From positions 1 through 23,043 of the IMG/VR virus record IMGVR_UViG_3300033146_003702: a DNA stretch of 23,043 bases, one strand, 5' to 3'. The notes below the pieces were generated by a model. It worked only from the letters and a program-made list of their open reading frames with translations, was not told the DNA's origin and searched no databases. Positions 3,146 through 17,410 of the stretch are shown piece by piece (the first letter of the stretch is position 1; every line of letters starts with the position of its first letter). The position numbers were made by a program, and so were the translations under genes. The DNA is from a virus.

Positions 3146-3174
3146 TTGACAAATCATAATATATATGATAATAT
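3146..3174 (+). promoter_or_regulatory. Sigma70/sigmaA-type promoter with extended -10 (P2)
   Basis: TTGACA (3146-3151), 17-base spacer, then TAATAT (3169-3174), with TATG at 3164-3167 as extended -10. It lies immediately after the helicase stop and about 40 bases before queD, so it should drive the 7-deazaguanine cluster. Confidence 0.8.
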
Positions 3175-3212
3175 TTTAAATTAATAATGACTAAAAAATT
3201 AAAGGAGGAAGT

Positions 3213-3608
3213 ATGTTTATTGCAACAAAAATATTCAGGTTTGCTGCAGCACACAAGTTGTCAAGAACGGATGCAGAAAAATGTACTATTTTACATGGAC
3301 ATTCTTATAAGGTGGAAGTGTCCGTATCAGCACAGTGTTTAAATTACAATGACATGGTTTTGGATTTCAACACATTAAAAAATTGTGTGGACATTGAGCA
3401 ATATGACCATTCATGTTTAAATGATTTTGAAGAAAATCCCACGGCAGAATGGTTATGTGGTAGAATGGCTGCTGAAATTCAACAAAAATTGAGCTCTTTA
3501 TGCACTGAAAATTTTGTACGGTTGTATAAAGTAAAAGTATGGGAAGAGATTGATAGTTGTTATGCAGAGTATATCAATGAAGAAAATAATGCCGCAAAAA
3601 GAGGATAA
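3213..3608 (+). CDS. queD: 6-carboxy-5,6,7,8-tetrahydropterin synthase
   Basis: 131 residues, close to the usual 120-150 for QueD. The start follows AAAGGAGGAAGT. It converts 7,8-dihydroneopterin triphosphate to 6-carboxytetrahydropterin, the second step from GTP toward preQ0. The T-fold signature is present: zinc-ligand His14 in AAAHKL, catalytic Cys24 before the HGH zinc ligands (His28, His30) in CTILHGHSY, the Asp-His pair in QYDHSCLN, and a C-terminal substrate-binding glutamate in VKVWEE. First gene after P2, followed by the zinc-ribbon gene with no gap, then queE, folE and queC, so the pathway is encoded as a block. The FolE partner supplies its substrate. In phages this set normally serves DNA modification rather than tRNA queuosine. 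Confidence 0.93.
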   Translation: MFIATKIFRFAAAHKLSRTDAEKCTILHGHSYKVEVSVSAQCLNYNDMVLDFNTLKNCVDIEQYDHSCLNDFEENPTAEWLCGRMAAEIQQKLSSLCTENFVRLYKVKVWEEIDSCYAEYINEENNAAKRG

Positions 3609-3773
3609 ATGATGCAGATAAATGAACAAAAATGCACAAAGTGCGGGCATATATGGTTGCCGAGAAAAGAAGGCCGCCCTGTGCAGTGCCCCTTTTGCAA
3701 ATCAGTAAAATGGGATGCTGTAAGACAAGATAGTAAAATTATAAAAAGGAGGGAAAATGACAGAACAAATTAA
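3609..3773 (+). CDS. 54-residue zinc-ribbon protein inside the que cluster
   Basis: A short reading frame directly abutting the queD stop and overlapping queE by 17 bases. Translation starts at ATGATG (the first or second ATG may be used; AGAGGA lies just upstream). The product has Cys9-x2-Cys12 (CTKCGHIW) and Cys27-x2-Cys30 (CPFCKS) separated by 14 residues, with Trp16 and Trp35 flanking the two knuckles: a typical small zinc ribbon. The C-terminal 20 residues are basic (KIIKRREND). Its position between queD and queE, without spacing, suggests co-translation with the preQ0 enzymes. Function is unknown: a DNA- or tRNA-contacting accessory of the transglycosylase is possible, but many phages carry small zinc ribbons unrelated to their neighbours. 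Confidence 0.7.
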   Translation: MMQINEQKCTKCGHIWLPRKEGRPVQCPFCKSVKWDAVRQDSKIIKRRENDRTN

Positions 3774-4458
3774 AGTTGCGGAAATATTTAATTCCATTAG
3801 TGGTGAGGTAAATCCGTATGGGCAGGGGGTTCTTACTACATTTCTTAGATTTTCTGGATGCAGCCAGACTTGCCATTATTGTGATACGCCAATTTCAGAT
3901 TCACCCATGTTATTTGAAAGTACAGAAAGCGTGTTTTTTGCGGTTGTGCCCCTTTTGCAGAAAACAGGGGTGCTGTGTATTACTGGTGGGGAACCATTAG
4001 AGTCAAATATAGATTGGCGCACATTTTTTTCATTGCTAAACGAATTAGCAGCTAAAAATAACATCTTTAAGGGGCTATATATAGAAACTAATGGTTGTGA
4101 GGACATTTCTACCATTACAAATTTATTTTCAACAAATCTTCTTTATTTTGCACACTCTTTTGTTTTAGATTGGAAAGCAAAAAATGAAAATTGGAAACCT
4201 GAAAACATGCAGTATTTACGGGAGTTAGATTTTGTAAAATATTTGGTATACGATTTGGAAACTTTTTTTACTGCTATTGATTTAATTGAAGTATCAAAAT
4301 TTTTATACGGGGTATCCGGGTTCCATACTGCAATTTCTTTAGTTAATGGTAGCGATAGCAATTTATCAGAAAAATTCATTATTGAAACTTTGTTAGAACG
4401 TAATTTACATTGGGTGGTATTAAACACACAAATCCATAAATTTTGTAACTTAAAATAA
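3757..4458 (+). CDS. queE: 7-carboxy-7-deazaguanine synthase (radical SAM)
   Basis: 233 residues. The start follows a strong AAAAGGAGGGAAA. QueE rearranges 6-carboxytetrahydropterin to 7-carboxy-7-deazaguanine (CDG) using S-adenosylmethionine, a [4Fe-4S] cluster and Mg2+. The cluster motif is Cys35-x3-Cys39-x2-Cys42 (GCSQTCHYCD), the canonical radical-SAM spacing, and TGGEPL (76-81) is the SAM-binding GGE motif. The N-terminal VAEIFNSISGE resembles the conserved QueE opening that contacts substrate. Length is normal for the family. It sits between the zinc ribbon (17-base overlap) and the Lys-repeat protein. Confidence 0.92.
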   Translation: MTEQIKVAEIFNSISGEVNPYGQGVLTTFLRFSGCSQTCHYCDTPISDSPMLFESTESVFFAVVPLLQKTGVLCITGGEPLESNIDWRTFFSLLNELAAKNNIFKGLYIETNGCEDISTITNLFSTNLLYFAHSFVLDWKAKNENWKPENMQYLRELDFVKYLVYDLETFFTAIDLIEVSKFLYGVSGFHTAISLVNGSDSNLSEKFIIETLLERNLHWVVLNTQIHKFCNLK

Positions 4459-4468
4459 GGAGGATACA

Positions 4469-5218
4469 ATGGCAGAAAACAAGTTTGAAATCAATGTAAT
4501 TAAAGCAGTAACAAAAGAATTAAACGAATCTGCTGTAATGAAAGACAGAAAGCCCCTTTCTTTAAAAGGAAAGTTAGGGGAACTGCAAGAGGCGTTTTTA
4601 TCCGAGTTAGAAGCATTGGATGATGCTGGTTTGGGGGATGATATTCCTGAAAATAGCATTGTTTTATACAATGATTTGGTTGATAACGAAAATCGAGAAA
4701 AAGAGGAAAAAGAAATGGCTGCAAAAAAGAAAGCTCCTGCAAAGAAGAAAGCTCCTGTAGAGGGTAAGAAGAAAGCTCCTGTAGAGGGGGGTAAGAAGAA
4801 AGCTCCTGTAGAGGGGGGTAAGAAGAAAGCTCCTGTAAAGGGTAAGAAGAAAGCTCCTGTAGAGGGGAAGAAGAAAGCTCCTGTAGAGGGGAAGAAGAAA
4901 GCTCCTGTAGAGGACAAGAAGAAAGCTCCTGCAGGAAGTAAGAAGAAAACCGAGGCTACCAAAGCAGAAGAAGCTAAATTGGCAAAAGAGGCATTAACTG
5001 CATATGGGAGTAAACCAAATTGTGCAAGTGGTCGTATTGACCAGTGCATTCATATTGGGGGCACCCTAACTGAAATTGCCAATACTGCCAAAACATCAGA
5101 AACAAGGGTGCGCCGTTACTTACGGACTCTTAAACGAAGGGGGCTTACAGTAATGGAGAAGATCGACCCTGATAACAAAGCAAACACCACTTATCGGGTA
5201 AAAGAAAAATCTCTGTAG
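4469..5218 (+). CDS. Lysine-repeat, histone H1-tail-like protein with C-terminal winged helix
   Basis: 249 residues with three regions. Residues 1-82 are an acidic helical domain I do not recognise (LSLKGKLGELQEAFLSELEA, then many D and E). Residues 86-157 are nine imperfect repeats of KKKAPVEG, strongly basic, Ala/Pro-rich and like the C-terminal tail of histone H1 or Chlamydia Hc2. Residues about 170-249 look like a winged helix (LTEIANTAKTSETRVRRYLR, then LKRRGLTVMEKI and a hairpin wing), a sequence-specific or general DNA binder. The start follows AAGGAGGATACA. It is the only non-biosynthetic large gene inside the que/dpd cluster and is followed by a terminator hairpin. Likely role: phage chromatin protein or regulator binding modified DNA, by inference only. 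An internal start at 4715 could yield a form lacking the acidic domain. Confidence 0.6.
   Translation: MAENKFEINVIKAVTKELNESAVMKDRKPLSLKGKLGELQEAFLSELEALDDAGLGDDIPENSIVLYNDLVDNENREKEEKEMAAKKKAPAKKKAPVEGKKKAPVEGGKKKAPVEGGKKKAPVKGKKKAPVEGKKKAPVEGKKKAPVEDKKKAPAGSKKKTEATKAEEAKLAKEALTAYGSKPNCASGRIDQCIHIGGTLTEIANTAKTSETRVRRYLRTLKRRGLTVMEKIDPDNKANTTYRVKEKSL
4703..4717 (+). promoter_or_regulatory. Possible internal ribosome binding site and ATG in the Lys-repeat gene
   Basis: GAGG at 4703-4706 lies 8 bases before an in-frame ATG (4715, Met83), exactly at the junction between the acidic N-terminal domain and the basic repeats. Initiation here would give a 167-residue basic repeat plus winged-helix isoform. 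The region is purine-rich anyway, so this may be chance. Confidence 0.3.
4724..4939 (+). repeat. In-frame tandem repeat encoding nine KKKAP units
   Basis: Tandem copies of an 18-27 base unit built on AAGAAGAAAGCTCCTGTAG. Unit lengths are 18, 24, 27, 27, 24, 24, 24, 24 and 24 bases; the two longest gain one Gly codon. All are multiples of three, so slippage changes the copy number without breaking the frame. Confidence 0.92.
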
Positions 5219-5232
5219 TTTACTATGTATTT

Positions 5233-5270
5233 AGGGCTATGCAGATACTAATTGCATGGCCCTTTTTATT
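5233..5270 (+). terminator. Terminator-like hairpin between the Lys-repeat gene and folE
   Basis: An 11-bp stem, AGGGCTATGCA (5233-5243) with TGCATGGCCCT (5253-5263), has one wobble pair, a 9-base loop and a TTTTATTT tail. It ends only ~13 bases before the folE start and no promoter is visible downstream, so folE-queC-dpdA must depend on read-through. Confidence 0.8.
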
Positions 5271-5283
5271 TAAGGAATTAAAA

Positions 5284-5841
5284 ATGATAAATGTAATAGA
5301 AAAATTATTAGACATAAAATATCCTGATTGGCGCAATGACTACAATTTTAAAGGAACCCCAGAAAGAGTGTCCAGGTTTTATGATTCCTTAACTTGGGAT
5401 AAGGTAAAAAGAGAAGAAAATGCCATAAAACATATTGTAACATTCCCTGGCAATGATTCAAAAATCATAACTGTCCCAGCTATTTCTGCTGGAAGTTTGT
5501 GCCCCCATCATTTACTACCAGTTTCATATAAAATTACTTTGGGGTACATGACCAAACAGAATACTCCTGTATTAGGGGCATCTAAATTAATCAGAATTGC
5601 ACGGGAATTGGCAAATGGCCCCGTTTTGCAGGAAGACTTAACTACAAATATTGGTTCATTTTTAAATGGATGTGTGAAAACTCATGGTACTGCGGTTATT
5701 ATCAAAGGGGTTCATGGGTGCATGCAATCAAGAGGTGTTCACAGTATAAATCCTTATATTACATCTGAACTTACTGGTGTGTTTAAAGAAAATGCAAAAG
5801 TAAGGGATGAGTTTTATCATCAAATAGTTGGGGAGTATTAA
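5284..5841 (+). CDS. folE: GTP cyclohydrolase I
   Basis: 185 residues from the ATG at 5284, chosen because TAAGGAATTA precedes it; an upstream in-frame ATG at 5239 lies inside the terminator stem. FolE converts GTP to 7,8-dihydroneopterin triphosphate and formate, the entry step to preQ0. The family motifs are clear: zinc ligands Cys73 and His76 in CPHHLLPV, LGASKLIRIARELA (the GxSKxxR segment), and the third zinc ligand Cys146 in HGCMQSRGV. The length is slightly short for the bacterial enzyme (about 190-220), with a reduced N-terminal helical region as in other phage forms. queC begins two bases after its stop. A folate role is less likely given queD, queE and queC beside it. Confidence 0.92.
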   Translation: MINVIEKLLDIKYPDWRNDYNFKGTPERVSRFYDSLTWDKVKREENAIKHIVTFPGNDSKIITVPAISAGSLCPHHLLPVSYKITLGYMTKQNTPVLGASKLIRIARELANGPVLQEDLTTNIGSFLNGCVKTHGTAVIIKGVHGCMQSRGVHSINPYITSELTGVFKENAKVRDEFYHQIVGEY

Positions 5842-5842
5842 A

Positions 5843-6526
5843 ATGGATACAGTGGCACTGGTTTCTGGTGGAATGGATAGCTATGTTGGCACATTGTTGT
5901 TGGAACGGCAACTCAAAACCAAAATCAATAAAATATACATAGATTATGGTGGGAAATGTTGTGCTATGGAAAAGTTTTATGTGATGCGGCAATTTCCTGA
6001 TGTTGAGATTGTTAAGGCATTTTCTTTTCTGAATGGCACTGAAACAGGGGATGGTGCTTTTATGTACGCCCGGAATTTGTATTTTGCTCTATACGCATCA
6101 AGATTGCATAAGGAAGTGGTTTTATTCGGACATAAAAATTCTGAATTTGCGGACAATACTATTTCTGGCAGATTACAAATGAGTGCGCTTTTGTCCACTC
6201 TTAAACAGGACACAGTTACAATATATTCTCCGATAGAACAATTAGAAAAAGAGGAGGTTGTAGATGCTTATATAGAAATTATTTGTCCTGATATTTCAAT
6301 TTTATTTATGCAAACCTTAAGCTGCACCGAGGGGAAACATTATTGTGGTAAGTGTGTTAATTGTTTCTATTTTTATTGTGCATTATTTTCCCATTTACCA
6401 CAGATGTGTGATATATCATTTTATAACATGGATATAATTGAAAAATACTACAATAAACTGGATGAGCTTTCCCCTATTAGAAGAAAAACAGTGAGTGCAA
6501 TAGCAGCTAAGTACGGGGTTAAATAA
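5843..6526 (+). CDS. queC: 7-cyano-7-deazaguanine (preQ0) synthase
   Basis: 227 residues. I use the ATG at 5843, with GGGGAG 7 bases upstream; an in-frame TTG at 5828 lies inside folE. QueC uses ATP and ammonia to convert CDG to preQ0. The PP-loop SGGMDS (8-13) matches the SGGxDS signature. A C-terminal zinc site appears as Cys in LSCTEG followed by CGKCVNC, the QueC four-cysteine pattern, though the Arg that often follows the last Cys is replaced by an aromatic stretch (FYFYC). The stop overlaps the dpdA-like start by one base (TAATG), implying translational coupling between preQ0 synthesis and its insertion. Length fits the family. Confidence 0.9.
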   Translation: MDTVALVSGGMDSYVGTLLLERQLKTKINKIYIDYGGKCCAMEKFYVMRQFPDVEIVKAFSFLNGTETGDGAFMYARNLYFALYASRLHKEVVLFGHKNSEFADNTISGRLQMSALLSTLKQDTVTIYSPIEQLEKEEVVDAYIEIICPDISILFMQTLSCTEGKHYCGKCVNCFYFYCALFSHLPQMCDISFYNMDIIEKYYNKLDELSPIRRKTVSAIAAKYGVK

Positions 6527-7362
6527 TGCCTAAAATATTTTTAGATAGCGGCGCATTTACAGTAAAATCAACAGGAATTCCTGTAGATATTCAAGCATAT
6601 GGTGAATTTATAAAAGAAAATTTAGATACCATAGAAGTATACGCAAATCTTGATGTTATTGGAGATAGCAAAGCTGGTTGGGAAAATCAAAAGATTTTAG
6701 AAAATATGGGACTAAACCCATTGCCTGTGTTTCATCCTATTTCTGATAAAATAAGTGATTTACATAGGTGTTTGGATAACTATGAATACTTTGGGGTGGG
6801 TGGGATAGCGCATGGGGCTACATTTAAACGTAGAATATCTGTATTGGATAACGTATGGGATATTTGCACAGATAAAAAAGGAATGCCTCTCGCAAAAATA
6901 CATGGGTTTGGTTTAGCAGACATTAAATTAGTTAATCGCTATCCCTGGTTCTCAATAGATAGTTCCAGTTGGGCCACTTATTCTCGATATGGAACAATGC
7001 TTTTGCCTAAAATGAAAGCAGGGGTTTGGGATTATACAAGAGTTCCTGTAAAAGTATTTGTATCGAATAACTCACCGTTTAAATGGAATCAAAATGATGA
7101 CCATGTATCAAATTTTTCAAAAAGCAATAAAAAGGTATTTGACCTTTATTTAGAAGAGAAAGAAGTTCCTTTTGGGGTGTCAGAATGGGATAAAAATTCT
7201 GATGGGGAAATAGAGGAAATTGTCATAGAACCTGGGGTAAGCAATGATAATTTCTGGAGGGATTTCATAAATTTTTGTTTTTATCAAGATATGTGTAATG
7301 CCCAACCAGAATGGCCATATGTTTGGAAAGAAAAACAAAAATATAATGTGAGGTTATTCTAA
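6526..7362 (+). CDS. dpdA: DpdA-like 7-deazaguanine DNA transglycosylase (TGT superfamily)
   Basis: 278 residues, shorter than bacterial tRNA-guanine transglycosylases (about 370). Motifs parallel TGT: LDSGAF at 6-11 corresponds to the TDSGGF segment carrying the base-recognition Asp (here Asp7); NLDVIGD (41-47) and VGGIAHG (91-97) follow the barrel order; KIHGFGLAD (124-132) precedes FSIDSSSW, where Asp145 is the likely nucleophile. There is no obvious C-terminal zinc site of the CxCxxC type found in tRNA TGTs. Known DpdA proteins swap guanine in phage DNA for preQ0 or a derivative. One-base overlap with queC and the complete preQ0 pathway upstream support DNA rather than tRNA as target. Which DpdA subfamily it belongs to and its sequence specificity cannot be read from here. 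Confidence 0.82.
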   Translation: MPKIFLDSGAFTVKSTGIPVDIQAYGEFIKENLDTIEVYANLDVIGDSKAGWENQKILENMGLNPLPVFHPISDKISDLHRCLDNYEYFGVGGIAHGATFKRRISVLDNVWDICTDKKGMPLAKIHGFGLADIKLVNRYPWFSIDSSSWATYSRYGTMLLPKMKAGVWDYTRVPVKVFVSNNSPFKWNQNDDHVSNFSKSNKKVFDLYLEEKEVPFGVSEWDKNSDGEIEEIVIEPGVSNDNFWRDFINFCFYQDMCNAQPEWPYVWKEKQKYNVRLF

Positions 7363-7363
7363 A

Positions 7364-7591
7364 ATGAAATTTTATACATCGGGAAACTTTCTTTATATGG
7401 CAAAAATGTATAGGGAAAAGCGGTTTATAAAAGAAGCTACATATAGGTATGGATTTACTTTTAATAGACTGGTGAGTTTCTTTTTCCCAAGAGAGTGTAA
7501 AAATGTATTTGATGCCGTAAATGGATTAGAAACAAATAAAAAAGGGGTGTGCTATGATCGTAGTAAAGCAATTAAGAGAAGAAAGAAGTAA
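7364..7591 (+). CDS. 75-residue basic protein of unknown function, next to dpdA
   Basis: Starts two bases after the dpdA-like stop and overlaps the next gene by 38 bases. The product opens MKFYTSGNF, continues with a basic helix (MAKMYREKRFIKEATYRYG) and FNRLVSFFFP, and ends in KRRKK. The combination of a short beta strand with SGNF and a RLVSFF strand looks like the start of a small alpha/beta domain. I do not recognise the family. Tight linkage behind dpdA suggests an accessory to the base exchange or a stump of a larger protein; nothing in the sequence decides between them. No transmembrane helix or cysteine cluster is present. Confidence 0.6.
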   Translation: MKFYTSGNFLYMAKMYREKRFIKEATYRYGFTFNRLVSFFFPRECKNVFDAVNGLETNKKGVCYDRSKAIKRRKK

Positions 7592-7931
7592 GGGGCCATT
7601 GAAATTGGGATATTCTACTCCCGAAGAATTTATAATTGATAATTTTAATGATATAGAAAAATACCCTGATGTGGCTGATTTATGTGAAGTATTAAAAGCA
7701 TCCAGAGAAGCCGTGTATCAATGGGCTAAAATCTTGGGTGTGAAACCCAAAAGACCTTTAGGGGCAAAAGCCGCAATTAAGCGAAATGACGTGCGGAATA
7801 AAGAAGTGGTTGCCTACATAAAATCCCCAGACCCCCACAGTGTAAAAGAGGCCGCAGAGCATTTTAAAGTGTCACAAACAACAATATATAACATCTGGCA
7901 TGGGAGACGAAAAGAACATGGAATTACTTAA
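7554..7931 (+). CDS. Small DNA-binding protein with two helix-turn-helix segments
   Basis: 125 residues. The start follows AAAGGGGTGTGCT and lies inside the end of the 75-residue gene. Two HTH-like segments are visible: residues about 43-66 (LCEVLKASREAVYQWAKILG) and about 97-118 (VKEAAEHFKVSQTTIYNIWHG). The second reads like a resolvase/homeodomain-type HTH ending in a basic GRRKE. A basic linker (VKPKRPLGAKAAIKR) joins them. It is probably a transcriptional regulator or a DNA-targeting protein. Its place at the end of the 7-deazaguanine cluster and before the replisome genes would suit control of either. No operator is evident, and no enzymatic motif is seen. Confidence 0.65.
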   Translation: MIVVKQLREERSKGPLKLGYSTPEEFIIDNFNDIEKYPDVADLCEVLKASREAVYQWAKILGVKPKRPLGAKAAIKRNDVRNKEVVAYIKSPDPHSVKEAAEHFKVSQTTIYNIWHGRRKEHGIT

Positions 7932-8079
7932 TACTATTGGGATGCTTACGATATGTATTTTAACAACAGTGTTTGTTTTTATGGAAACAGGGGTTGTAAC
8001 CCTAATAATACTGTTTTGTATGTTTTTGCAGTTACTTACTTTAACCAGAAAAATAAGGAATTACAATGAAAAAAGATGA
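7918..8079 (+). CDS. Small hydrophobic (membrane) protein
   Basis: 53 residues, overlapping the preceding HTH gene and the following clamp gene by 14 bases each. After MELLNTIG there are two hydrophobic stretches, about 8-22 (GMLTICILTTVFVF) and about 26-43 (VVTLIILFCMFLQLL), separated by METG, then a basic end (TRKIRNYNEKR). This fits one hairpin of membrane helices or a single long one, with the positive end in the cytoplasm. A purine-rich GGGAGACGAAAAGAAC lies upstream as a weak ribosome binding site. Without this frame the region would be a 134-base gap in an otherwise gapless operon. Function unknown. Confidence 0.55.
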   Translation: MELLNTIGMLTICILTTVFVFMETGVVTLIILFCMFLQLLTLTRKIRNYNEKR

Positions 8080-9115
8080 AATACTTACAATTTTAGAAGA
8101 GGTGCTTTTTGGGGTTTCTGAAAAAGGATTGTTTGAAGAAATGGCACATGTTGTTTTTTACAATGGGACAATACTTACTTATAATGACAGTATAGCGGTT
8201 AGTGCGGCTCTTCCTGATGGTGAAGGGGGGTTTCAATGTGGTGTAAATGCACAAGCTTTTTATCATGCCATAAAATCCATTCGTACAAAAAACATCGCTG
8301 TGGAATTTGATAAAGCGTTGTCTGTTATCGGTGGGAAAACAACAATCACGTTACCCGTATCCAAGTCTACCCGCTTGCAAGAGTTACATAATTCTATAGA
8401 TGTTGAACATGTGTTAGATTATGCTTCCGTTCTCCCTTCCCAATTTATACAATCTTTAAAATCCGTTGCAGTTATGGCTTCAGATAATATTCATGCTGGG
8501 CAAGGAATGGCTTATGTTAGGATTACTCCAAAATCATTAGAGAGTTCTAACGGTGTTAAAGCAGGGTATGTAAAAATGCCAATTAAAATTTCTAAAGAGG
8601 TTTATATTCCAAAAACTATTATTTCTGAGGTTCTAAAATTCAACCCCCAGGAAATTGCGATTGATGATTCTTGGGCGCATTTTATTTCAACAGAGGGGAC
8701 AATTTTATCGGTGCACTTACCGGAGGTTATTAATGGGTTTCCAAGCCCTTCCACTTTTATAAAAGCAGCAACAAAAAAAATTGGAACATTGGAAGTAACA
8801 CCAGAAATAGTTTCCTCTATTGAAGATTATGGGTATTTTTCTGATGGCTTTACAAAACAAGATAAGAGCATCACTGTATCTTTATCAACAAACACCCTAA
8901 AATTATCTATTGTTGGGAATAAAGCAGACGTAGAATCAGAATTAGCAATAGATTATGAAGGAGAGGAAGTGACCTTTGTTTCCTCCGCCCCCTTTTTATC
9001 AGAAGTTCTTATTGGTTCTCAATTACAAATTTTTTCTATTTCCGATAACACAGGGATTCTCGTAACCCAGGTAGACGATGGGACATACATAGTGGCTGTT
9101 CATTTAAATAATTAA
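8066..9115 (+). CDS. DNA polymerase sliding clamp (beta-clamp-like)
   Basis: 349 residues; start after AATAAGGAATTACA. The protein has the alternating strand-rich composition of DNA clamps. It shows repeated features of the three-domain beta fold: N-terminal LFEEMAHVVFYNGTILTYND and ISVSAALP-like strands, a middle domain starting around LPSQFIQSLKSVAVMAS, and a C-terminal end resembling the bacterial beta-clamp terminus (FSISDNTGILVTQVDDGTYI then VAVHL). It would encircle DNA and tether the polymerase encoded just downstream; the clamp loader at 11797 completes the set. Sequence similarity to cellular DnaN is weak, so part of the assignment rests on position between polymerase and loader. Length is close to the 360-380 usual for beta clamps. 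Confidence 0.72.
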   Translation: MKKDEILTILEEVLFGVSEKGLFEEMAHVVFYNGTILTYNDSIAVSAALPDGEGGFQCGVNAQAFYHAIKSIRTKNIAVEFDKALSVIGGKTTITLPVSKSTRLQELHNSIDVEHVLDYASVLPSQFIQSLKSVAVMASDNIHAGQGMAYVRITPKSLESSNGVKAGYVKMPIKISKEVYIPKTIISEVLKFNPQEIAIDDSWAHFISTEGTILSVHLPEVINGFPSPSTFIKAATKKIGTLEVTPEIVSSIEDYGYFSDGFTKQDKSITVSLSTNTLKLSIVGNKADVESELAIDYEGEEVTFVSSAPFLSEVLIGSQLQIFSISDNTGILVTQVDDGTYIVAVHLNN

Positions 9116-9129
9116 AGAAAGGAAAAAAC

Positions 9130-11793
9130 ATGGGGGCTTTTCTATTTCAAGTAAATAAAGAGTTTGCATTTTGTAGTAAATGCAAACTACATGCAAAATG
9201 CCGTAACCCACGGATGCCCACAATGGGGAACCTCAAAAGAGATATTATGATTATTAGAGAGTGCCCTACTGCTATTGATGATAAGAAAAATTCTTACTTT
9301 TCAGGAGAACAAGGAAAATTCCTACAAAATGCCTTTGCTAAGTATGGTTACGATTTTTATAAAGATTTCATCTTTGAAAATGCACTGGCTTGTTTTTCTG
9401 CTAAAGAGCCCACTAAAACGCAAATTAAATACTGCAGGGAGCGTTTACTGACAGCCATTAAAGTAACTGCTCCTAAAGTAATAATTACTTTTGGAAATGC
9501 AGCCACATTCTCTGTGCTGAGCCCTGTACTGAAAAACACATCTGTGCATAGTATTGATGGGACAATCATTCCCTACCATGATATTGGGGCCTTTGTAATT
9601 CCAATGCAACATCCGAATCGTGTTATCAAATCTAAATTTGATAAATTGTTCCCCGCACACTGGGATAGAACATTAAAAACGTGTTTAGAATTTTGTCAAA
9701 ACATTCCCCCACTACAAAAAATAAAATATGCCGATAAAATTGAATTTATTACAACAATAAAAGGAATAAAAAAATTATTTAATGCTATCTTACCAAACGA
9801 AATAAAGCAAAATAAAGCATTTGCAATAGATTATGAAACATCAGGGCTTACTTTACAGGCGCAAGAGCATTCTGTGTTTTCATGCGCTATAGCTATTGAA
9901 AACGGACAATCCTATGCTTTCCCAATTTCACACCCTGAAGCGGGGTTTACCGAAGATGAGCAAGATTACATTATTGATTTACTAAGTAAATTTTTGATAA
10001 GCGGTGCTTATTTGATTGCACATAATTCTCATTATGAAACCTCTGTTTCAAGGAACGTTTTGGAATCTGTACCAATTATTGATTGGTGTACCATGAATAT
10101 ACAGCATATTATTGATGTGCGCCCTAAAATAACTGGTTTAAAACATCAGGTATTTGTGCGATGGGGGATTTCTTATGATGAAAATGCTCAAAAATATATA
10201 TGTGCTGATGAAAGTGGCTTTAATAAAATGCACAAACAGCCATTATCAGAACAGTTAATGTATGTAGGATTGGATAGTTTCTTTACAATGAAATTATTTT
10301 TAGCTCAAGAAAAGGAGGTTTATACTGTAGAAGGGGCTGACTTTTTTAATTCAGCCGTTCGTATGTTGGAAAAAGTAAACAATAATGGCTTTTGTGTTAA
10401 TGAAACATATTTTAAAACTACTACAGAAACACTAAAAAATGAAATTGATGCGTTAACCACTGAAATACACAGGGATTCTGATTTACAAGGGTACTTAAAG
10501 CAACAAAGAATGGCAAAAGAGGATTTTAATGTAGACTCACCAACACAACTGGTTCCTTTTTTTTATGAGTACCTAAAAATACCTATTAAGCATAGAACTA
10601 ATACAGGAAAGCCGTCTGCAGATGAAACAGCATTACTTGATATTAACCACCCAATTATTGATAAAATATTAAAACGTAGAAAATATAGTAAGGCACTCTC
10701 CACTTATGTACTGCCTATAATAGATAAAATTTATGACGGTAAAGTTTACCCCCAGTTTTTATTAAATTCTGCTCGGTCATTGCGAAGCTCAGCGGTCGCT
10801 CCTAATATCCAAAACCAGCCAAAAAGAAATGAGGAGATCAAAAAAATAGTACGTAGTGGTTATTTTCCAGCTAAAGGACATCGTTTATTTGAAGCGGATT
10901 TTTCAGGAGTTGAAGTTGCTACATCTGCCATCTATCACCAAGACCCCGTATTTATCGAGTATCTTGAAAATGATGATGCTGATATGCACAGGGATAATGG
11001 TTGTGATTTATGGGTGCTATTGCCTAATGAAATATCAAAGGAAATTAGATTTTATGTAAAAAATGGGTGGACGTTTCCAGAATTTTACGGGGATTTTTTT
11101 GGAAGTTGTGCTGAAACTTTATGGGAGAGTAGTTTAAATTTACCTCTTAATGGGAACAAAACAACTATTAAAGAACATATACAAAGCGAATCCTTTTGTT
11201 CCCGGTTTAATCGTTCTCCGTTTGTTATAGAGTATAAAAAATATGCAAAAGGAGCATTAACAAAAGAAGATAAAAATACAATGCTGTCTGCTATTGCACA
11301 AATAGAAACAAATGGTATTACTTCGTTAGAGTTATTTAAACAACATGCTCGTATGGTTGAGCATTATATGTGGAATGTTCGGTTTAAAGTATATACGAAA
11401 TGGAAAAATTTAATTCGGAATGAGTACATAAAAACTGGCATGGTTACAACTAAAATGGGGTTTAGATTTACAGGATATTTAGATAAAAAACAAGTTACAA
11501 ACTATCCCATTCAATCAACAGCATTTCATATTCTACTATGGTGCATGATACAACTGCAGGAGTATTTAGAATCAATTAATGCACAAAGTTTTCTGTGCGG
11601 GGAAATCCATGACTCAATGATAATATCTATTGCCCCAACAGAAGAAAAACGGATTATCCGAAAAATAAAACAAATATGTGAAGTGGATGTGCGAAAGGAA
11701 TTTTTGTGGATTAATGTTCCTTTTAAAATAGATTTAGAGGCTACACCAGAAGTTAATCAATCATGGTATTATTTAGAGGATTATAAGGAGTAA
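9130..11793 (+). CDS. Family A DNA polymerase with N-terminal family-4 UDG-like Fe-S domain
   Basis: 887 residues; start after AAAGAAAGGAAAAAAC. Domain 1 (about 1-190) resembles family 4 uracil-DNA glycosylase: four cluster cysteines Cys15, Cys18, Cys88, Cys102 in family spacing, ECPTAIDD (44-51) in place of the GEAPGxxED motif, FGNAAT (121-126), and the catalytic-loop HP (161-162). Domain 2 is a DEDDy 3'-5' exonuclease: DYE (234-236), HNSHYE (298-303, with Glu where Asp is usual) and YVGLD (378-382). Domain 3 is polymerase A: motif A DFSGVE (Asp590), motif B with Arg640, Lys644 and FYG (652-654), and motif C HDS (827-829) instead of the usual HDE. It is the replicative polymerase working with clamp and loader. 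A fused glycosylase domain could act on or sense uracil at the fork. Whether it is active is uncertain because the motif-1 glycines are lost. Confidence 0.9.
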   Translation: MGAFLFQVNKEFAFCSKCKLHAKCRNPRMPTMGNLKRDIMIIRECPTAIDDKKNSYFSGEQGKFLQNAFAKYGYDFYKDFIFENALACFSAKEPTKTQIKYCRERLLTAIKVTAPKVIITFGNAATFSVLSPVLKNTSVHSIDGTIIPYHDIGAFVIPMQHPNRVIKSKFDKLFPAHWDRTLKTCLEFCQNIPPLQKIKYADKIEFITTIKGIKKLFNAILPNEIKQNKAFAIDYETSGLTLQAQEHSVFSCAIAIENGQSYAFPISHPEAGFTEDEQDYIIDLLSKFLISGAYLIAHNSHYETSVSRNVLESVPIIDWCTMNIQHIIDVRPKITGLKHQVFVRWGISYDENAQKYICADESGFNKMHKQPLSEQLMYVGLDSFFTMKLFLAQEKEVYTVEGADFFNSAVRMLEKVNNNGFCVNETYFKTTTETLKNEIDALTTEIHRDSDLQGYLKQQRMAKEDFNVDSPTQLVPFFYEYLKIPIKHRTNTGKPSADETALLDINHPIIDKILKRRKYSKALSTYVLPIIDKIYDGKVYPQFLLNSARSLRSSAVAPNIQNQPKRNEEIKKIVRSGYFPAKGHRLFEADFSGVEVATSAIYHQDPVFIEYLENDDADMHRDNGCDLWVLLPNEISKEIRFYVKNGWTFPEFYGDFFGSCAETLWESSLNLPLNGNKTTIKEHIQSESFCSRFNRSPFVIEYKKYAKGALTKEDKNTMLSAIAQIETNGITSLELFKQHARMVEHYMWNVRFKVYTKWKNLIRNEYIKTGMVTTKMGFRFTGYLDKKQVTNYPIQSTAFHILLWCMIQLQEYLESINAQSFLCGEIHDSMIISIAPTEEKRIIRKIKQICEVDVRKEFLWINVPFKIDLEATPEVNQSWYYLEDYKE

Positions 11794-15998: not shown

Positions 15999-16848
15999 AA
16001 CATTGTTAATTGATTGTCATTTTCTTGGGCACAGGGCCAGATTTATACATGGGGAGTTAATTACCCGTTCCGGGGTTCCATCAGGTGTTATTTTTGGGTT
16101 TTTAGACCAGATAAAAACACTAATGTATGCAATGGAAACCACTGATATTGTATTTTGTTGGGACTCTTTCCATTCTATCAGAAAAACAATGTCATCTGAA
16201 TATAAAAATAAGAAAGGAAAACCATTATCTCCTGTAGAAATACAATCTTTAAAGGTAGCAAAAGACCAGTTTAAGAAATTACGCAGGTCATTACTTCCTG
16301 ATATGGGATTTGTAAATAATTTTATTCAAAAGGGATACGAGGCTGATGATGTAATGGCCTCTATTGTTAATTCATACAAGAATAAAGAATTTGTGATTGC
16401 TTCTGCAGACCAAGACCTTTATCAATTACTTAATGACCACACCTCTATGTATGATATGAAAAAGAAAATATTATACACAGAGGCTTCCTTTGAAAAAGAG
16501 TTTGGCATCCCAATAAACAAGTGGCCGCAAGTAAAAGCCATTGCCGGATGTTCCAGTGATAATGTGATTGGAATTGAACGTGTGGGAGAAAAAACTGCCT
16601 GCTCTTATTTACGGGGAGAACTAAAATCCCATACCAAAGCATACGCTAAGATTGAGGCGCAGCAGGAGGAAATGCTACAACGCAACATGCCCCTTGTTAA
16701 ACTCCCTTTATCGGGAATAAACAAATTTATAATTAGGAAAAACAAATTAAATTTTGAGCATTTTTTAGATGTTTGCTATGCGTATGAATTTGAAAGTTTT
16801 ATTAACGGCCCCATTATTGAAGAATGGAGGACAATATTCAATGACTGA
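15991..16848 (+). CDS. FEN-type 5'-3' exonuclease / RNase H
   Basis: 285 residues; ATG preceded by GGAGTTCTCA. The metal-binding acidic residues of the FEN/PIN fold appear in order: Asp8 (LLIDCH), Asp58 (FCWDS), Glu117-Ala-Asp-Asp120 (YEADDVMAS), Asp140 and Asp142 (SADQDLYQL), and Asp190 in the helix-hairpin-helix region (KAIAGCSSDNVIGIERVGEK). It would remove RNA primers or 5' flaps during lagging-strand synthesis; the ligase at 17407 would then seal the nick. Because the polymerase at 9130 has a UDG-like rather than a 5' nuclease domain at its N-terminus, this separate gene supplies that activity. Confidence 0.9.
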   Translation: MAKTLLIDCHFLGHRARFIHGELITRSGVPSGVIFGFLDQIKTLMYAMETTDIVFCWDSFHSIRKTMSSEYKNKKGKPLSPVEIQSLKVAKDQFKKLRRSLLPDMGFVNNFIQKGYEADDVMASIVNSYKNKEFVIASADQDLYQLLNDHTSMYDMKKKILYTEASFEKEFGIPINKWPQVKAIAGCSSDNVIGIERVGEKTACSYLRGELKSHTKAYAKIEAQQEEMLQRNMPLVKLPLSGINKFIIRKNKLNFEHFLDVCYAYEFESFINGPIIEEWRTIFND

Positions 16849-17410
16849 AAAAACAGAATTAGCTAAGTACACAAGCAGGCGTGTTCGTACTGGAAAAGCC
16901 AAAGGAAGGAGACTACAAAAATATGTTGCGGGAAAAATCTCTGAAATGACTGGCATTTCTATGGGAAAAGATAGAGATATTGAATCAAGGGAAATGGGGC
17001 AAGCGGGGGTGGATATCAAACTATATGGGAAAGCAAAAGAGCTGTTTCCTTATGCCATTGAGTGCAAGAACGCACAAAATTGGAGTTTCAAAGGGTACAT
17101 CAAACAGGCCAGAGATAATAATACGGATGGTTGGGATAATTGGCTATTATTTGTTGGTAAAAACCACTTTAAACCGATTGTGCTTATGGAAGCCGATTTG
17201 TTTTTTGAATTATTTAATGGCATAGAATTATATGAAAAAACACTTAAATCTAAAGTGCAATGGAGTGTAGCAAAAAATGTAATAGCTGCCCGGAAAAAAA
17301 TAAAAGACAATCTTTTTATTTTTCATTGCATGAATGACAAAGAAGAGCGCTTTGCGATTATGGATGCAGATTTGTTTTTTAAACTATATGCAGAAAGGAT
17401 AATTAAATGA
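16841..17410 (+). CDS. PD-(D/E)XK-fold nuclease, possible Holliday junction resolvase
   Basis: 189 residues from the ATG at 16841 (GGAGGACAATATTCA upstream), overlapping the exonuclease gene by 8 bases. The catalytic pattern is GVDIKL (Asp58) followed by YAIECKN (Glu74, Lys76), the classic D-(x)n-ExK of this fold. The N-terminus is very basic (RRVRTGKAKGRRLQKY), consistent with DNA binding. The ligase gene starts in the overlapping ATGA at 17407. In this setting (RecA, FEN, ligase, Mre11) a structure-specific or junction-resolving nuclease is the best guess; an ssDNA nuclease or a homing-type enzyme are alternatives. Confidence 0.68.
   Translation: MTEKTELAKYTSRRVRTGKAKGRRLQKYVAGKISEMTGISMGKDRDIESREMGQAGVDIKLYGKAKELFPYAIECKNAQNWSFKGYIKQARDNNTDGWDNWLLFVGKNHFKPIVLMEADLFFELFNGIELYEKTLKSKVQWSVAKNVIAARKKIKDNLFIFHCMNDKEERFAIMDADLFFKLYAERIIK

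Follow-up and report, generated by a model that had tools for sequence, protein, structure and literature searches.

Phages CAjan and Rosebush, which belong to group 2 of Hutinet et al. (2019), carry the genes for preQ0 synthesis without an amidotransferase gene and have dPreQ0 in their DNA (PMC6884629). In a dpdA mutant of CAjan dPreQ0 is lost and the DNA becomes sensitive to restriction, and the dpdA gene of phage 9g fails to complement an E. coli tgt mutant (PMC6884629). A conserved His, at position 196 in 9g DpdA, separates DpdA1-type enzymes from DpdA2 (PMC6884629). In 9g and in CAjan/Seurat (Queuovirinae) DpdA is a single chain.

tRNA-guanine transglycosylase (TGT) bears a zinc domain. 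It resembles DpdA in its barrel fold and its pair of catalytic Asp residues (archaeosine TGT, PDB 1iq8; Z. mobilis TGT; residue roles in PMC5395182), and is likewise a single chain, but it acts on tRNA.

Here we describe a DpdA locus in a 23,043-nt fragment of the viral record IMGVR_UViG_3300033146_003702 (positions 1 to 23,043; hereafter the window). The best explanation, to which we give a probability of about 0.85, is a preQ0 cassette in which DpdA is split into a core and a 75-residue protein, p75, which together make one barrel enzyme from two genes. The homology, the complementarity between what is missing from one part and present in the other, the fusions in both orders and the co-localisation were all computed; the physical assembly, the activity and the base made are what we infer. 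No split DpdA or small subunit of DpdA turned up in a literature search, and an earlier notice may exist in papers that treat DpdA subfamilies and their motifs (gkad657; PMC7544227). Most likely the novelty here is the 75-residue gene as a detached part of DpdA, the gene cluster and dPreQ0 being of a kind already known.

The preQ0 cassette and its surroundings

The cluster, all features of which lie on the + strand, begins with queD (3213–3608; 6-carboxytetrahydropterin synthase, CxxxHGH motif; PF01242, 1.8e-26; TIGR03367, 3e-24), followed by queE (3757–4458; 7-carboxy-7-deazaguanine synthase, radical SAM, CSQTCHYC; phrog_2076, 5e-15), folE (5284–5841; GTP cyclohydrolase I; PF01227, 9e-34), queC (5843–6526; 7-cyano-7-deazaguanine synthase; PF06508, 5e-11) and dpdA (6526–7362; DNA guanine transglycosylase; phrog_887, 1.5e-40). 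QueC, with its ATG at 5843, has the PP-loop SGGMDS, the motif CTEGKHYCGKCVNC and a Cys4 zinc site. The first-pass annotation had placed five enzymes here, and each was matched by profile search (Pfam/PHROG E-values of 9e-34 to 5e-11, and 1.5e-40 for DpdA), with catalytic and metal motifs intact in QueD, QueE, FolE, QueC and DpdA. FolE, QueD, QueE and QueC would build preQ0 from GTP, and DpdA would swap guanine in phage DNA for preQ0, giving dPreQ0.

This is the gene set of group 2, and it supports the prediction of a dPreQ0 cassette. The same base had been proposed earlier as the simplest one, a proposal which fares well: QueF/QueF-L, ArcS and a Gat domain were not seen among the ORFs of the 23-kb fragment, and its QueC has no Gat extension. 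Later-step genes may sit elsewhere in the genome, since the record is only a fragment. In 15 relative records, all fragments, there was no QueF above the cut-off; weak matches in five of the relative records fell below it, and since one of them sits at a FolE T-fold gene, all were taken as FolE. Within the limits of a partial genome the base prediction itself is ordinary, because the gene set of CAjan and Rosebush gives dPreQ0, which is lost in the CAjan dpdA mutant.

The TGT fold would also suit a transglycosylase which acts on tRNA and boosts host queuosine rather than modifying DNA. We regard this as highly improbable. The matches to the window protein are phage DpdAs, with 37% identity to 9g DpdA over the core, and no tgt/queA/queG-type gene was seen in the window. 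Moreover, deletion of dpdA in CAjan abolishes DNA modification, and the 9g gene does not complement the E. coli tgt mutant (PMC6884629).

The neighbourhood of helicase, que genes, folE, dpdA, sliding clamp (8066–9115, a conserved neighbour 3′ of dpdA) and polymerase is common to the window and the DpdA1 phages 9g, Seurat and BcepGomr. The window shares with 9g and CAjan/Seurat the preQ0 gene set, the position of dpdA between helicase and sliding clamp/polymerase, and a DpdA1 core with both Asp residues and the conserved His. It differs from them in gene order, which is queD-queE-folE-queC-dpdA in the window and queE-queC-queD-folE-dpdA in 9g, CAjan and Seurat, and in having barrel strands 1 and 2 in a separate downstream gene. 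The best-scoring isolate match for the window polymerase is the group of Edwardsiella phage ZHS and its relatives (L012, L082, L091), which has the same order QueC-FolE-DpdA-clamp-polymerase-clamp loader and module-like ORFs near dpdA. Unlike the window, this group has no queD or queE annotated nearby, and its module-like ORFs, which are of other classes, lie about 0.5–1 kb downstream. Several of them surround a nucleoside deoxyribosyltransferase gene. The annotated DpdA start in these three phages may be too late, with an in-frame upstream segment in L012 and L082.

Other features of the surroundings were also observed. The window polymerase (9130–11793) is a family A DNA polymerase fused to a uracil-DNA glycosylase domain (PF03167, 8e-14), and its counterparts in relatives have a similar N-terminal Cys-rich domain. 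In the nearest relative the polymerase gene (L094:5511–8789) is split by an HNH-like ORF (7261–7836), which is probably a homing endonuclease or an intron. In another relative (L014:4962–6533) an insert which resembles an intein and has an HNH-type segment breaks QueE at its CxxxCxxC motif. A putative PDDEXK nuclease (16769–17410) lies in the window between a 5′-3′ exonuclease-like ORF and a ligase-like ORF.

A promoter-like site is well placed upstream of queD (3146–3174; TTGACA, 17 nt, TAATAT, with a TG before the −10 box, i.e. an extended −10). Across the region such sites are not commoner than in shuffles (22 observed, 24.9 in shuffles). Within the cluster there is a strong terminator-like hairpin (5233–5263; 12-bp stem, T-rich tail), which covers the first folE ATG at 5239, and therefore the true start of folE is probably 5284. 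This hairpin argues against one simple transcription unit. Together with the count of promoter-like sites it means that the cluster is not established as one block behind a single strong promoter, as had been claimed.

The four passenger genes described in the first annotation are all real ORFs, and some were put forward there as possible new parts of the modification system. This guess did well for p75, albeit in an unforeseen way, as a detached part of DpdA. Nothing ties the Lys/Ala/Pro-repeat protein (4469–5218) to site choice. Modules of the p75 type co-occur with dpdA at 43 of 49 short loci. The 54-residue zinc ribbon (3609–3773) has one clear counterpart, at the matching position in L014. 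Besides p75 only the winged-helix protein is broadly conserved among the passengers; the C-terminal winged helix of the repeat protein is common to nine relatives, 5′ of dpdA, where the linkers are acidic or otherwise of low complexity. In the window the winged helix is preceded by histone-tail-like KKAP repeats, encoded by a 24-bp tandem array (4742–4948). Homologues of the 125-residue double-HTH protein (7554–7931) and of a 59-residue membrane-type ORF (7900–8079) were not found in the relatives.

A DpdA core and the segment it lacks

The comparison drew on 146 unique DpdA loci from viral contigs, isolate phages and MAG contigs. Relatives were recovered by alignment-based searches only; none were found when the DpdA or the polymerase of the window served as a single query against viral contigs. 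Host naming from MAG names (Sulfuricurvum, Pacearchaeota, Spirochaetes and others) was dropped because short phage contigs are often mis-binned.

In the alignment the first catalytic motif, DSGAF, follows the start of the window DpdA after only 6 codons, and an in-frame stop lies immediately 5′ of that start. Ordinary 9g-type DpdAs have 50–70 residues ahead of this motif, so that the window protein lacks about 60 N-terminal residues, which the first annotation had not noticed; position 57 of the phrog_887 profile aligns to its residue 3. The gene does not encode a complete one-chain barrel including the N-terminal 50–70 residues. The catalytic pair is present, with Asp7 (DSGA[FY]) and Asp145 (S-x-DS) invariant in alignments A1 and A2, and His126 is invariant in A1 and almost invariant in A2. 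Such short forms account for 49 of the 146 loci.

Structure prediction is consistent with a missing quarter of the barrel. The window core modelled alone with AF2 has six barrel strands (pLDDT 89.6), and a naturally longer DpdA from a relative, L139, has eight (pLDDT 91.6), the first two of which (residues 2–5 and 32–37) lie in the N-terminal segment while the third runs into the catalytic Asp. The strand counts come from the secondary-structure listing, in which strands and helices alternate; for the shortest strands the DSSP line was used. In Foldseek searches against the PDB the core matches archaeosine TGT (1iq8) with an E-value of 0.13, and the L139 protein with 9.8e-4, at rank 1. A profile search of PDB sequences with alignment A3 gave chance matches only and did not find TGT.

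The p75 gene (7364–7591), immediately 3′ of dpdA, encodes a protein which resembles the absent segment. It reads MKFYTSGNF, a helix, NRLVSFFF and a second helix (b1-a1-b2-a2, 'NFP' class), and is the sole match in the window to the pattern of an M-x-[IL]-Y-x-A-G strand, a helix, an R-L-x-S-[FY] strand and a helix. The stand-alone p75 family aligns to the N-termini of ordinary DpdAs in hhalign with a probability of 94 (E 9.5e-8, score 36.4), against a best score of 14.6 among 222 decoy tiles. When p75 and seven further modules were scanned against Pfam and PHROG, they matched no family. An HMM trained only on the N-termini of long DpdAs matched 133 small ORFs (E<0.01) among all six-frame ORFs of the unique loci, and 125 of these are on the strand of dpdA and no more than 2 kb from it, where 12.3% would be expected (P ~1e-102). 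Window p75 by itself scores weakly against the N-terminal HMMs of long DpdAs (6.7 bits, with 5 of 1962 shuffles equally high), and therefore its link to DpdA runs through the family and the fusions. Judged by sequence, it is a clear member of the module family, with 49% identity to its counterpart in the nearest relative, L094, where dpdA has 43% (tblastn).

Modules (E<0.1) are present at 43 of the 49 short dpdA loci, and p75 itself is conserved immediately 3′ of dpdA in several short-dpdA phages. In 27 short loci the module starts at most 20 nt from the dpdA stop, mostly with overlapping start and stop codons. Among the six short loci without a module at E<0.1, ORFs that resemble modules can be seen by eye in L016, L049, L056 and perhaps L034. 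There are no stand-alone modules at 62 long-form loci, which are mostly those of classical Queuovirinae-like phages. Some module copies are short or overlap in odd frames, as might be the case if modules were degenerating remnants of dpdA genes that had been broken or recombined. The start/stop overlap with dpdA, good ribosome sites, 30–50% identity kept across phages and classes that occur once per phage make this very unlikely.

Fusions and the proposed assembly of the barrel

In L139 the module is the N-terminus of DpdA, and this fused module matches the free module of L172 (BLASTP E 1e-14) as well as window p75 (E 2e-6). In L168 the module is instead the C-terminus (residues 320–373, HMM E 2.4e-15), and because it follows the core, as in the gene order of the window, L168 is a natural circular permutant. 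Its sister on the tree (SH-aLRT 96), L161, has a short DpdA and a free downstream module. Five clusters are mixed, with a module class that is fused in some phages and free in others, and on well-supported branches of a quick tree the state switches between fused and split at least 9 times.

In the split enzyme the dpdA product would supply barrel strands 3–8 and both catalytic Asp residues, and p75 the absent strands 1 and 2 with their helices, the two coming together as a single, non-covalent (beta/alpha)8 barrel. Judging from TGT, p75 would form the wall of the pocket that takes the target sugar and the 3′ phosphate, and would carry a loop-helix motif beside the dimer interface, an assignment of residues read from aligned motifs and not from a computed superposition.

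A different possibility is that proteins of the p75 type are separate regulators or inhibitors of DpdA, as decoy subunits, and that short DpdA is complete on its own, e.g. through strand exchange in a homodimer. At 35 loci a long DpdA is paired with stand-alone modules, and hence not every module is needed for a barrel. However, the module corresponds exactly to the part that short forms lack, modules are fused at either end of DpdA and the six-strand core matches TGT weakly, so that we consider this possibility unlikely.

Loci with several modules

We found 172 modules in 74 loci, with up to six per locus; 44 of these loci hold 2–6, often of different classes. Of 142 modules with a paralogue at their own locus, 139 find their nearest match in a different phage. 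The largest classes have about one copy per locus (29 modules in 28 loci, 14 in 14, 13 in 13, 10 in 9 and 7 in 7). The commonest class (MKIY.ATWL....) is found at 28 loci, with a single copy at 27 of them, often directly after dpdA (e.g. L126:6870–7022 and L125:6193–6348). At the core boundary an internal start and a Shine-Dalgarno sequence are present in 20 of 35 long dpdA genes with extra modules and in 6 of 62 without (P 8e-7), and therefore the former may also yield free core.

Such a pattern suits parts that are retained for distinct tasks, and our most natural guess for the candidate role is the choice of DNA target. Different modules might complete one DpdA core as exchangeable specificity subunits, each giving another DNA context or activity. 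The several modules per locus, their closeness to modules of other phages, the once-per-locus classes, the mixed fused/free clusters with frequent switching and the enriched internal starts all point this way. Nevertheless, the window fragment shows one module only, and the variation could instead serve dimer pairing, regulation or escape from inhibitors, so that we put this extension forward tentatively, at somewhat less than even odds. Type I restriction-modification systems have separately encoded specificity subunits, HsdS, beside a shared catalytic core. The comparison is of how the systems work only, homology being absent, and target choice by DpdA modules is putative.

Natural examples of barrel splitting and circular permutation are rare, and a TIM barrel cut between strands 2 and 3, with the small piece encoded 3′ and joined to one end or the other in relatives, is one of them. 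The split accounts for an orphan gene family without a Pfam or PHROGs match, and short DpdA genes expressed alone may look inactive. The family may possibly consist of a catalytic three-quarter barrel and interchangeable quarter-barrel subunits from separate small genes, each of which would complete the active site and redirect base exchange to another DNA sequence context, a putative modular and reprogrammable DNA transglycosylase. If the modules set the DNA target, site selection by DpdA would become directly testable by swapping 60-residue parts.
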